Shown piece by piece: positions 13,059 to 62,547 of a stretch of DNA of 64,000 nt. The stretch's first letter is position 1. Each line of letters starts with the position of its first letter. The DNA lies in NCBI GenBank assembly GCA_001771575.1, contig MEUD01000001.1:1303277-1367276 (forward strand). The letters are read 5' to 3'. The stretch comes from a candidate division WOR-1 bacterium RIFOXYB2_FULL_45_9. GTDB lineage: Bacteria > Margulisbacteria > WOR-1 > O2-12-FULL-45-9 > XYB2-FULL-48-7. A program made the translations under genes and the position numbers. A model generated the notes under the pieces. It searched no databases. It was given only the letters and a program-made list of their open reading frames with translations, and had not been told where the DNA came from.

Positions 13059-13104
13059 AGTATTGGTGTTACTGTTGGCTTTAACCGCGGAATTCATTCT
13101 GCGG

Positions 13105-13134
13105 TTAGAATAAGTATTATGGTTAAGGTATAAT
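13105..13134 (+). promoter_or_regulatory. Promoter of dus
   Basis: TTAGAA-N18-TATAAT ending 6 nt before the dus ATG; -10 framed by TGGTTA...TAACCA. Confidence 0.55.
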
Positions 13135-41402: not shown

Positions 41403-42371
41403 GTGAAAATCGGAAAAGTATGGGGACTTTTATTGATTGCGATTGTTTTAGTCGGTTTTCAGTTTAAGGCTGATGCTGAAAAGAAGAAAATTGTCCCGGC
41501 CGGAGGACGTAATCAGTTACAAGGATTTGAGGGGAGGATGGGGCAATGGCTAGCCAATGGAACGTCGAAATTCAAAGTGATTAGTTTTAGCTATCCAGCG
41601 ACTGGGCCGAACGGCGAAAAGGCCAACAAAGGGAAAAAGTATGTAGAGATAGAAGTAGAAGTGGTTAATAATCAGAAAAACAATGGTATATATGGTGGAA
41701 CACGCACATTAAATTTAGTAGACAAAGATGGTCAAATATTTGACAGGGTTTATAGTGTTCCGATTGATGATTGGCGCAGACGGGCCGCACCAAAGCGCTT
41801 GAAACCAGGGGAGAATGTTAAATTGTCTTATTTAGCTATTGTTCCCGAAAAGTATTTTCCCGTCAGGTTGGTGTTTGTCCCAGGGGTAGATGTGCCGGTT
41901 TATCGGGTTCGTTTAACAGATGAAGTTAATCTGATTGCCTCAGAAGACCAGACCGAGCTTCAGGGCCGAGAGGGGAAAATCAATGAATGGCTTTTTAATG
42001 GGACTACAAAATTTAAGGTGTATAGCGTAAGCTATCATGATGGCGATCCGCTTGGCCACAAAGCCCCGGTCGGCCGGAAATGGGTGGCGATTGAAATTGA
42101 GATAAAGAACGCGCATAAGAAAACCATGGCGTTTGGCGGGTCATATAAAGTTGTTACCTTGTTTGATCAAAATGGAACGACGTATGATGATTTTTACCAC
42201 GCTAAAAAAGATGATTGGAGCAGACATGAAGGGACAACCCGGCTTCTCCCAGCAGCCGGATTGAAAGCCTGGTATGTTGGAACGATTGATAAAAATTATC
42301 TACCGGTTAAACTGACTTTTCTTCCAGAACCTAAAGCTACGCTCTTTGAAGTCGACTTAAAGACGGAATGA
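41403..42371 (+). CDS. Exported two-repeat protein (DUF4352-like domains), copy 1
   Basis: Signal peptide; two homologous halves LQGFEGRMGQWLANGTSKFKVISFSYP... and LQGREGKINEWLFNGTTKFKVYSVSYH...; GTG start, SD AAGGAAGG. Confidence 0.75.
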   Translation: MKIGKVWGLLLIAIVLVGFQFKADAEKKKIVPAGGRNQLQGFEGRMGQWLANGTSKFKVISFSYPATGPNGEKANKGKKYVEIEVEVVNNQKNNGIYGGTRTLNLVDKDGQIFDRVYSVPIDDWRRRAAPKRLKPGENVKLSYLAIVPEKYFPVRLVFVPGVDVPVYRVRLTDEVNLIASEDQTELQGREGKINEWLFNGTTKFKVYSVSYHDGDPLGHKAPVGRKWVAIEIEIKNAHKKTMAFGGSYKVVTLFDQNGTTYDDFYHAKKDDWSRHEGTTRLLPAAGLKAWYVGTIDKNYLPVKLTFLPEPKATLFEVDLKTE

Positions 42372-42407
42372 GGCTCAATGCTTAGAATTGAAAAGGAAGG
42401 TGTAGGT

Positions 42408-43379
42408 ATGAAAATCGGAAAAGTATGGGGACTCTTGTTGATTGCTGTTGTTTTAGTTGGTTTCCAGTTCAATGCCGAAGCTGAAAAGAAGAAAATTGTT
42501 CCGGCCGGAGGGCGCAATCAACTGCAGGGATTACAGGGGAAAGTCGGAGAATGGCTGGCCAACGGAACGTCGAAATTCAAAGTGATCAGTTTTGAATATC
42601 CGGAGGCCGGACCGAATGGAGAAAAAGCCGGCAGTGGGAAAAAATATATCGCGATCGAAGTGGAGCTGGTCAATAATCAAAAATTCACAACCTCTTATGG
42701 CGGGCCAAATGGCTCATTAAATCTGGTAGATAAAGATGAGCAATTGTTCACAACGGTTTATAATGTTCAAAAAGAAGATTGGAGAAAAAGAGAGCCTTCC
42801 AAACGATTGCTGCCGGGGGCCAGTTTAAAGGTGTTTTATCTCGCCATTGTCCCCCAGGAATATTTTCCGGTCAGATTGGTTTATGTTCCAGGGACAAAAG
42901 TCCCGGTTTATCGGATAAATTTAACGGATGAGGCAACGCCGATCGCGTCGGAAAGCCAAACCAAGCTTCAAGGCCGTGAGGGGAAAATCAATGAATGGCT
43001 TTTTAATGGTACGACAAAATTTAAAGTTTATAGCGTCAGTTATCCGGAAACCGATCCGCTTGGCGCAAAAGCCCCGACCGGACGAAAATGGGTTTTGGTT
43101 GAAGTGGAAATACGAAACGCTCATAAGTACACAAGCTCATTTGGCGGACCGAACTGTGTTTTGACCCTGATCGATCAAAAGGGGGAGGCGTTTGACAAGG
43201 TTTATCACGTAAAAAAAGCCGATTGGCGAAAACGTGAGGGGCCGACCAGGCTTATTCCCGCCGCTGGGCTTAAGGCCTGGTACGCTAGCGCGATCAATGA
43301 TGATTATTTGCCGATCAAAATGACCTTCTTGACGGAACCGAAGGTCCCGCTTTTTGAGGTCGACTTGCAAACGAAATGA
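42408..43379 (+). CDS. Exported two-repeat protein, tandem paralogue (copy 2)
   Basis: Near-identical N-terminus to copy 1 (MKIGKVWGLLLIA[IV]VLVGFQF) and the same two-repeat layout. Confidence 0.78.
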   Translation: MKIGKVWGLLLIAVVLVGFQFNAEAEKKKIVPAGGRNQLQGLQGKVGEWLANGTSKFKVISFEYPEAGPNGEKAGSGKKYIAIEVELVNNQKFTTSYGGPNGSLNLVDKDEQLFTTVYNVQKEDWRKREPSKRLLPGASLKVFYLAIVPQEYFPVRLVYVPGTKVPVYRINLTDEATPIASESQTKLQGREGKINEWLFNGTTKFKVYSVSYPETDPLGAKAPTGRKWVLVEVEIRNAHKYTSSFGGPNCVLTLIDQKGEAFDKVYHVKKADWRKREGPTRLIPAAGLKAWYASAINDDYLPIKMTFLTEPKVPLFEVDLQTK

Positions 43380-45426: not shown

Positions 45427-46320
45427 ATGAAAACTTATAGCCGCGAATTATTTAACCGCGCAATTAATTGCGCGGTTATAATTGGGTTGTTATTTGTCTT
45501 TTCCGGTTGTTCCCCCAAAGTAGTCGAAGTAAAAACAGTTTCCCCGGTCAAAATATCGGCCGGCGAACATATCTTTACGAAATTCCCGGTCTTAGAATAC
45601 CACCTGATCCGCCGGCCAGAGGCCCGCTGGTCGCGGACCCCGGAGAATTTTTGGCGCGACCTGGAGTGGCTTAGGGCCAACGGATATTATCCTTTTAACC
45701 TGCGCGATATTTTGGCTGGTTTTCCCGGCCTGCCGGAAGGGAAGGTCCCGGTCGTCCTGACCTTTGACGATTCGTCGTCGAGCCAGTTCCGTTATTTGCG
45801 GAGCGGCGAAGTTGATCCGGAGTGCGCGGTCGGGATAATTAAAAGATTTAACGCGAAATACCCTGACTGGCCTGCGCGCGGGACGTTTTTCATCCTGGTC
45901 CAAACCAACAATCCCGATCGGAATATCTTCGGCCAGCCGGAAAACCCCGATTATAAGGCCGGGAAACTTCGCCAGCTGGAAGAGTGGGGGATGGAGGTCG
46001 CTTCTCATACATATAGCCATGACCGGTTATCGGACATCTCAACCCGCGAAGCGGCCTATTCGCTTGCCAGATCAAGCCGGACCTTGAGCGGGATCATTAG
46101 CCGCGAGGTTGTCAGCCTGGCCCTGCCGATGGGGTTATATCCAAAAGACGAATCGGTTTTTACGGGGAGCTATCAAAAAATAAGCTATGATTTTAAACTG
46201 GCGGCGGAAGTTGCCGGCGGCCTTCAACCGGCGCCGTGGGAAAAAAACTTTGATCCCCGTCATATCAGAAGGATACAGACCATCGCTTCAGAGTGGAAAA
46301 AATTCTTTGGCCGAGAGTAG
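45427..46320 (+). CDS. Polysaccharide deacetylase-family lipoprotein
   Basis: VLTFDDSSSSQF (NodB motif 1), MEVASHTYSHDRLSD (motif 2), lipobox VFSGCS. Confidence 0.88.
   Translation: MKTYSRELFNRAINCAVIIGLLFVFSGCSPKVVEVKTVSPVKISAGEHIFTKFPVLEYHLIRRPEARWSRTPENFWRDLEWLRANGYYPFNLRDILAGFPGLPEGKVPVVLTFDDSSSSQFRYLRSGEVDPECAVGIIKRFNAKYPDWPARGTFFILVQTNNPDRNIFGQPENPDYKAGKLRQLEEWGMEVASHTYSHDRLSDISTREAAYSLARSSRTLSGIISREVVSLALPMGLYPKDESVFTGSYQKISYDFKLAAEVAGGLQPAPWEKNFDPRHIRRIQTIASEWKKFFGRE
45453..45478. repeat. 26-bp perfect palindrome inside the deacetylase signal-peptide coding region
   Basis: TAACCGCGCAATT/AATTGCGCGGTTA. Confidence 0.9.
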
Positions 46321-58332: not shown

Positions 58333-58339
58333 TTTGTTG

Positions 58340-59617
58340 ATGCTAAATAAGACCGCCATAGTACTGTTCTCTGATGATCATGAGCTTCCGCCGATCGTCC
58401 GGGAAGCGATGCGCGAGTGGGATGTACAGCTGGCCCCCGACCTTGAAACCGCCAGAGAACTGGTCCGGCTACAGCCGGCCGCGCTGGTCATTTTAGACAA
58501 CGACCTAAAAGCAATTGACGGTTTGACCGCCTTCCGGCAGTTGCGGCTTGTTGCCCCCGATCTAAAGGTCTTAATGCTCTCTTCGGCCAATGATATCCCT
58601 TTGGCGGTTTCGGCCGCCAAGCTTGGGGTTGCCGACTTCCTAAAAAAAACATTCGCCCTCTCCCAGCTCAAAGAAGCGATCGAAAGGCTCTCGGGCGGCA
58701 TTAGCAAGCCCTTTGTATCGCTCAGGACCGATTGGGGAAAAGGGGAAGGGCTAAAGAAGCTCTACGCGGAGATCCAGACGTTATCGTCAAATAATATTAT
58801 TTTGTTCGGAGAGACGGGGATAGATATCGGACCGGTCGCGGAGCTTATCCACCAAAACGGACGCCAGCGCTCGCGGCGGTTTGAGCGGATCGATCTTGCC
58901 TCGTTCAAGCGGGAAAACCTGGAAGCGTACTTTTGGACCTCGGTCCAGGAGTTGCTGGCGGCGCCGACCGCCGCCGCCCTGCAGGACGAAGACGAGCGGT
59001 GCGGGACATTGTACCTGGAAAACTTTGACCGTCTCGACCAGGGTTTTAAGAGTTCGATCCTGGAGTTTTTCAGGAAACGAAAAGAATCGCTTGATCAATC
59101 TACGGTAATCGTCATTGGGACAGAAGCCCAGGAACTGCTGGCCGCTCAATCGGCCGGGTACACGAAGCTGGTTATCCCCGCGCTAAGGGAGAGGAAAGGG
59201 GATTTTCCTTTTATCCTGGCCGCTTATCTTCAGAGGCTGGCGGTCGCCTGCGACAAAAACATTCTCGGGATATCTTCCGAAGCGATCAGTTTTCTTGCCG
59301 CGTATGACTTCCCCGGTAATTACCGTGAGCTGGAAGCGTTGGTCGAGAAGGCGGTCCTGAACTGCCGGGGAGAGGTCGTTTCCCTGGCCGACATTTCCGT
59401 CGATTACGAAACTTATAAAGAGATCTTTCTGAAGAAAGCTAGATTCGAAGGGTTGGTCTCTCTTGACGAGGTCCGGCGGGCGTTTGAGGCCGGGCTGTTC
59501 AATTTTCTGGCTCTCAAGAACGGCGATGACCTGGGGGGACTGGCGAGATATTTTGACCTTCCACGGACTGCGGTCGCCGACCGAATGAACGAACTAGCCG
59601 GTAATTCGCTTAATTAG
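58340..59617 (+). CDS. NtrC-family response regulator with degenerate AAA+ domain
   Basis: Receiver residues DD/D/S/K (FSDDHE, VILDNDL, MLSSAN, FLKKTF); C-terminal IPALRERKGDFPFILAAYLQR and FPGNYRELEALVEKAVL; Walker A GETGIDIG lacks GK. Confidence 0.85.
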   Translation: MLNKTAIVLFSDDHELPPIVREAMREWDVQLAPDLETARELVRLQPAALVILDNDLKAIDGLTAFRQLRLVAPDLKVLMLSSANDIPLAVSAAKLGVADFLKKTFALSQLKEAIERLSGGISKPFVSLRTDWGKGEGLKKLYAEIQTLSSNNIILFGETGIDIGPVAELIHQNGRQRSRRFERIDLASFKRENLEAYFWTSVQELLAAPTAAALQDEDERCGTLYLENFDRLDQGFKSSILEFFRKRKESLDQSTVIVIGTEAQELLAAQSAGYTKLVIPALRERKGDFPFILAAYLQRLAVACDKNILGISSEAISFLAAYDFPGNYRELEALVEKAVLNCRGEVVSLADISVDYETYKEIFLKKARFEGLVSLDEVRRAFEAGLFNFLALKNGDDLGGLARYFDLPRTAVADRMNELAGNSLN

Positions 59618-60967: not shown

Positions 60968-61043
60968 ATGGGAAGAAAGGGTTGTAATCTTTAAAGAAAA
61001 GCGTATCATACTAATGGTTCAATAGTTATTGGAGGTAAAAATC

Positions 61044-61469
61044 ATGATTTACTTGATAAGCGCTGGTTTAATCTCCCTGGGTTTTGGTTTAATGCTGCTT
61101 CTTTACTCCCCCGTTTGTAAAATGGTCTGCCGGACTTGCGATCAGGTCGTTTTTGATCTAGACAAATTCACGGCGGGCTATCGGAATATTTTTGGCGGAC
61201 TGTTGATCCTGGTCACGATCATTATCGGCAGTGTCGCGGTCTTGACGCCGCAAACTCCCCAGCTTCATCTGTTTTGGGTCGTTTCTTTAGTTTTTGGACT
61301 GTTTTTCATCTTACTACCTAAGCAGTTGGCCAAGCTTTCTTTGGCGGCGAACCGGATGGTCTTTGACACCGAAAGTAGTGTTGCGGCTTATTGCCGGACA
61401 GTCGCTGTCGTTCTTCTTCTGGCGGGCGTCTACATATTGTATATCGCCTACGCTTTCGCGGGCCGCTAA
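61044..61469 (+). CDS. Small membrane protein, unknown
   Basis: Four hydrophobic segments; SD GGAGG at about 61032. Confidence 0.6.
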   Translation: MIYLISAGLISLGFGLMLLLYSPVCKMVCRTCDQVVFDLDKFTAGYRNIFGGLLILVTIIIGSVAVLTPQTPQLHLFWVVSLVFGLFFILLPKQLAKLSLAANRMVFDTESSVAAYCRTVAVVLLLAGVYILYIAYAFAGR

Positions 61470-61506
61470 TAAAAAAAGCTTACCGGGAAGCGGCTCGGAG
61501 ACCCAG

Positions 61507-61575
61507 GACGAGCGGGGCAGGACATTGTACCTGGAAAACCTTGAACATTTCGACCAGGGTTGTAAGAGCTCGATC
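61507..61575 (+). pseudogene. Duplicated fragment of the AAA+ Walker-B region of the 58340 regulator gene
   Basis: 69-nt ungapped match to 58991..59059 with 8 mismatches by hand; encodes DERGRTLYLENLEHFDQGCKSSI vs DERCGTLYLENFDRLDQGFKSSI. Confidence 0.8.
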
Positions 61576-61658
61576 AATGAGAAGAGAGAGCTGCAGCTTT
61601 ACCTAACGATTTCCACTTTGCTACCGAATACCACAAAAAACATGCTAAAATCCTAGCC

Positions 61659-62480
61659 ATGAACTATAAAAAACTGATCACTGTTTCATTTTTTTTATTC
61701 TTTTTGTTTGCCGGTTACTTTCTGGCTGGTTGCGGCAGAGTTCCCCTGACCGACAGGCAACAGCTATTGCTCGTCTCCGATGCCGATGTTGATGCTCTTG
61801 GGGCGCAGCAATACACTGAAGTTTTGGCCAAATCAAAGATCGTCACCGGGACCGTCGACCAGCAAAGGGTCGCCAGGGTCGGGAACCGGCTCTCTGCGGC
61901 GGTTGAAGATTTTGTCCGCAATAATGGGATCAGCTCTTCTGGGACCGGCTATAAGTGGGAGTTTGCCCTGATCGAAGATCCGACCGTCAACGCTTTCTGT
62001 CTTCCCGGCGGGAAGATCGCGGTTTATTCCGGCCTCCTCCCTGTGACTCGGAACGACGCGGGCTTGGCCGTCGTGATTTCCCACGAAATTGCCCATGCTT
62101 TGGCGAAACACAGCGCTGAACGGATCAGCCAGATCCTGCTGGTTCAATACGGCGGCGCGCAGTTGTCCGACGCCATCAAGAGCAACCCCGAAGAGACCAG
62201 GAATAATATTATGCTGGCGTTCGGTATCGGTGCGAACGTCGGCGTCCTCCTCCCCTATAGCCGGGTCCAGGAAAAGGAGGCCGACCGGATTGGCCTGGCT
62301 ATAATGGCTTACGCCGGTTATGACCCGAACGAAGCTTTAACGTTCTGGACCAGAATGGAGGATCTGTCGCCTTCAAGAACGCCGGAGATCCTTTCGACCC
62401 ATCCTCTTTCCACGACCAGGATCAGCGACATTAAGGCGGGAATACCAGAGGCGTTGAAGTATTATCGACCGGCGAAGTAG
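61659..62480 (+). CDS. M48-family metalloprotease lipoprotein
   Basis: Lipobox LAGC; VVISHEIAHALAKHSAE; EKEADRIGLAIMAYAGYDP. Confidence 0.92.
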   Translation: MNYKKLITVSFFLFFLFAGYFLAGCGRVPLTDRQQLLLVSDADVDALGAQQYTEVLAKSKIVTGTVDQQRVARVGNRLSAAVEDFVRNNGISSSGTGYKWEFALIEDPTVNAFCLPGGKIAVYSGLLPVTRNDAGLAVVISHEIAHALAKHSAERISQILLVQYGGAQLSDAIKSNPEETRNNIMLAFGIGANVGVLLPYSRVQEKEADRIGLAIMAYAGYDPNEALTFWTRMEDLSPSRTPEILSTHPLSTTRISDIKAGIPEALKYYRPAK

Positions 62481-62547
62481 GGAGAAAGCACAAAATACGA
62501 GGTTTCCAATCGTTGCAGTTTCCCAGGTTTTGTACTATCATAAAAAT

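Follow-up and report, generated by a model that had tools for sequence, protein, structure and literature searches.

A 69-bp partial copy of a response-regulator gene in an intergenic gap of a candidate division WOR-1 genome

A 69-bp intergenic segment, with a small membrane-protein gene to its left and an M48 peptidase gene to its right, is very probably a non-functional, decaying partial duplicate of a response-regulator gene located upstream of it, and would have arisen in this lineage after the split from the congener G001. The features discussed here are listed in Table 1, with coordinates given as positions in the window, which is the whole 64,000-nucleotide stretch of DNA that was analysed.

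Table 1. Location of the fragment, its parent gene and their neighbours in the window
Feature	Coordinates	Strand	Evidence
Response-regulator gene with degenerate sigma-54-activator AAA+ domain (parent gene)	58334..59617	+	Domain matches, orthologues
Parent segment within the regulator gene	58991..59059	+	No amino-acid difference from the G001 orthologue in this segment
Gene for a small membrane protein to the left of the fragment; conserved in G001	61029..61469	+	
Stretch lacking a syntenic counterpart in G001, containing the fragment and the M48 gene	61471..62513	.	blastn against G001
Relic: diverged 69-bp partial copy of the regulator gene	61507..61575	+	61/69 identity, 7/8 changes nonsynonymous
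M48 peptidase gene	61659..62480	+	Peptidase_M48 6.9e-36

The fragment and its parent gene

A repeat search bears out the match on which the preliminary description was built. The fragment and the regulator segment agree without gaps at 61 of 69 positions (88%), on one strand and in one coding frame, and a search of the whole 1.67-Mb genome assigns the pair an E value of 3e-19. The spacing of 2.4 kb first reported is near the length of the gap between the copies, but measured from start to start the distance is 2516 bp. The fragment is indeed intergenic, lying between the membrane-protein stop at 61469 and the M48 ATG at 61659. The genome is a single contig of 1,668,697 bp (completeness 98%, contamination 0.03%), and the search for additional copies, which had been left open at first, finds none beyond the pair; no third copy of the segment exists in the whole 1.67 Mb, for a total of two.

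On the left side, similarity to the regulator gene possibly continues for about 17 bp (to 61490) with one gap under permissive scoring, an extension that is not significant (P = 0.07). On the right side there is no similarity beyond the fragment (P = 0.90), and elsewhere in the genome the flanks match nothing longer than 14-18 bp. A longer paralogue surrounding the fragment was considered and rejected, with the flanks aligning to the regulator gene at chance level only. The fragment covers 69 of the 1284 bp of the regulator gene, which is the partial homology of a gene-fragment pseudogene. With two genomic copies and no match in phages, plasmids or viral contigs (the last scanned with a single exact 20-mer as query), it does not have the character of a dispersed or mobile repeat, and a mobile origin was rejected as well.

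The regulator is recognised by its domain matches (Response_reg, 4e-16; AAA_lid_14, 6e-17; Sigma54_activat, 2e-4) and by orthologues with 75% identity in G001 and 31-42% class-wide. When GTDB contigs were scanned for nearer relatives, the one return was a 38% orthologue from candidate division WOR-1. The copied piece had been named a Walker-B segment, which is correct by position but not by sequence; canonical sigma-54 activators read TLFLDE at Walker B, and the parent has the non-canonical TLYLEN there. The Walker A of the regulator reads GETGIDIG, with the lysine lost, and many orthologues have GERGIDK, in which the central glycine is replaced. Furthermore, the GAFTGA loop is absent on inspection by eye, the receiver domain is present, RpoN is encoded in the genome, and a gene for a GAF-PAS histidine kinase adjoins that of the regulator. 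The regulator is an activator that occurs class-wide and is probably ATPase-dead, and an activator of this appearance and distribution beside a GAF-PAS histidine kinase merits separate study.

Comparison with the congener and the pattern of change

The congener sample consists of one genome, G001. The gene order regulator, phosphomannomutase, membrane protein and Memo is common to both genomes, with two additional genes in G001 between the phosphomannomutase and membrane-protein genes that are not found in this genome. In G001, the Memo gene follows about 97 bp past the membrane-protein gene, and this syntenic gap contains neither the fragment nor an M48 gene. When the window is compared with G001 by blastn, the alignment stops at 61470 and restarts at 62513, with about 60 bp between these points in G001. 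Because G001 carries neither the fragment nor the M48 gene, the fragment stands at the left end of a stretch of ~1 kb found, among the genomes compared, in this one alone. The interval from the membrane-protein gene to Memo is, by this comparison, a site of lineage-specific gain and loss, and since there is a single congener, the absence of the fragment from G001 may be a loss. The fragment is not conserved as an ORF across 57 genomes, which returned only the regulator gene itself (from this genome and G001) and two weak matches of 22 and 34 bp.

The M48 gene is also missing from the other 18 genomes compared from the family and order, G001 among them, and its nearest relatives (67% and 58%) occur in other families of the class. 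A gain in this genome takes fewer events than losses elsewhere, which suggests that the gene was gained here. Its GC3 of 0.65 equals that of the regulator gene (0.65), and its composition carries no foreign mark.

Across the 69 bp, the regulator genes of this genome and G001 differ at three sites, all of them silent, and the fragment has the state of its own genome at all three. Read with no close outgroup, three silent sites weakly suggest copying within this lineage, in agreement with the lack of the insert in G001. The fragment differs from its own regulator gene at eight sites, and G001 agrees with that gene in 8/8 cases; therefore all eight changes occurred on the branch of the fragment. 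The distance between fragment and parent is 0.126 (Poisson range 0.05-0.27), and the mean dS between this genome and G001 is 1.05 over six genes (about 1.1 for the regulator gene). As the distance of the fragment is far below the between-species dS, the copying is placed well after the split. If the fragment evolves at the synonymous rate, the age of the copy would be about a quarter (0.10-0.52) of the age of the split.

Seven of these eight changes are nonsynonymous, a proportion expected under neutrality (P = 0.49) and not under the dN/dS of 0.14 of the parent (P = 0.004). This is the relaxed selection, relative to the parent, of a gene-fragment pseudogene; moderate purifying selection (omega 0.3-0.5) would also fit (P = 0.05-0.18), eight substitutions being few. 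The changes break positions that are mostly conserved class-wide, converting CGT to GRT and F to C, and affect hydrophobic positions too.

Origin of the fragment and alternative explanations

A non-homologous event is the likely origin of the fragment, and two routes fit equally. In one, a short piece of the regulator gene would have been captured in the join as the ~1-kb stretch bearing the M48 gene was gained. In the other, a tandem duplication would have formed the junction 61506|58991, and the second copy would later have been deleted save for its first 69 bp. The direct orientation and downstream position of the fragment suit tandem duplication, and its location beside a lineage-specific gene suits capture. 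The origin of the fragment and the gain of the M48 gene may also be separate events. The preliminary description offered three options, of which the tandem-paralogue relic and the captured fragment are both compatible with the evidence, leaving the mimic peptide as the one that fares poorly. As a partial duplicate in decay, the fragment would not be expected to yield protein or to regulate anything.

The missing M48 gene in the other members of the family and order compared, which suggests a gain, could also mean that the fragment and the M48 gene came together from another species of the same genus instead of the fragment being copied locally. This is very unlikely, as the fragment has all three silent states of its own lineage, the peptide should be the same in any functional donor from the genus, and the nearest M48 gene, in G023, has different DNA upstream.

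The position of the fragment upstream of the M48 gene, on the same strand, would also permit a cis-acting or RNA element, either in the leader of the M48 transcript or as an RNA acting by pairing with the regulator mRNA or by titrating its factors. The region 61470-61600 has a mildly stable predicted fold (z -1.95), and a weak promoter-like site lies inside the fragment on the minus strand. However, promoter-like sites occur at the shuffled rate (2 against 1.1 ± 1.0), with no excess of promoters or terminators beyond about 1.5 sd, and the fragment itself folds like its shuffles (z -1.08) into a structure that differs from the one predicted for the parent. In addition, a TGCTAAAAT box found by eye at 61640-61661, 8 bp ahead of the M48 ATG, suggests a leaderless M48 transcript, and with it the fragment would lie upstream of the M48 start. 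A structured RNA was rejected, with no Rfam match. An RNA role of this kind thus has a very low probability, and the broader proposal that a transcribed or translated fragment might tune the degenerate regulator nearby, by acting as an RNA decoy or a competing peptide, would be extremely improbable.

The frame of the fragment is open from 61465 to 61656 in the register of the parent, and belongs to a 120-aa ORF with a TTG start (61294-61656). An expressed peptide starting at TTG 61525, or at the start of this ORF, could in principle mimic part of the regulator and disturb its assembly. The open frame is weak evidence, however, because 72% of random segment copies with 8 substitutions stay open, as do 9% of shuffled flanks. 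The ORF from 61294 overlaps the conserved membrane-protein gene (probably translated from the internal ATG at 61044) out of frame, and the sole in-frame ATG, at 61642, lies five codons ahead of the stop. Together with the neutral-like changes, the broken C-G-T and the absence of the fragment from the sister species, this late ATG leaves the mimic peptide with almost no likelihood; a gene copy that stays open and in frame is no evidence of a peptide. An assembly or sequencing artefact, in what is presumably a metagenome assembly, can be given hardly any credence either, as a false join would produce an identical copy and not eight one-sided substitutions, and the site has G001 synteny on both sides within one contig of 98% completeness and 0.03% contamination.

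Other repeats in the genome and comparison with known kinds

Several other repeats were observed in this genome. A perfect 26-bp palindrome, TAACCGCGCAATTAATTGCGCGGTTA, lies at 45453-45478, with a variant at 13082-13107, and the genome has 17 sites at ≤2 mismatches (control pattern, 0). Both arms of the variants mostly change together (GCAC..GTGC, GGAA..TTCC), with pairing kept, and these sites form a dispersed palindrome family, perhaps of bidirectional terminators, REP-like elements or protein-binding sites. The 58-bp intergenic stretch at 2342-2399 has an inverted copy of 97% identity at genome position 1496443-1496500, and that copy overlaps a region with a weaker match at a third location (L090 3763-3809); the stretch has no Rfam match. 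Larger duplications are also found. The genes at 41403-42371 and 42378-43379 are tandem paralogues with 73% nucleotide identity and two repeated domains in each, and sit between queA-like and tgt-like genes (named by eye). At L099, near the contig end, 10055-11362 and 12987-14294 form a direct 1.3-kb duplication with 95% identity and internal repeats.

Among 96 intergenic gaps in a 464-kb sample of the genome, no other fragment of a nearby protein gene as strong as this one was recognised. The other intergenic matches inspected in this sample were tRNA genes, palindromes, an inverted pair and one 58-bp repeat, with a few short weak matches left unclassified. The fragment is thus uncommon in this genome, yet of a well-known kind. 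It offers a clean, datable case of rearrangement leaving behind a small piece of a gene in a compact genome, and is otherwise of minor importance.

Broken, non-functional gene fragments are a recognised class in prokaryotic genomes (PMC9336565). Like gene-fragment pseudogenes, the 69-bp segment is short and truncated relative to the neighbouring gene that it copies, has no proper start codon, shows neutral-like changes and is lineage-specific. Unlike typical members of the class, it is very short, both of its ends are internal to the gene, and its frame is open, as chance allows. Tandem duplication through illegitimate recombination is likewise documented in bacteria (PMC11111574). Similar to the remnant of such an event, the fragment is direct and lies 2.5 kb downstream, as would the start of a second 2516-bp unit. 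It differs from a full tandem duplication in that nothing else of the second copy is left, which gives it the same look as a short templated insertion.
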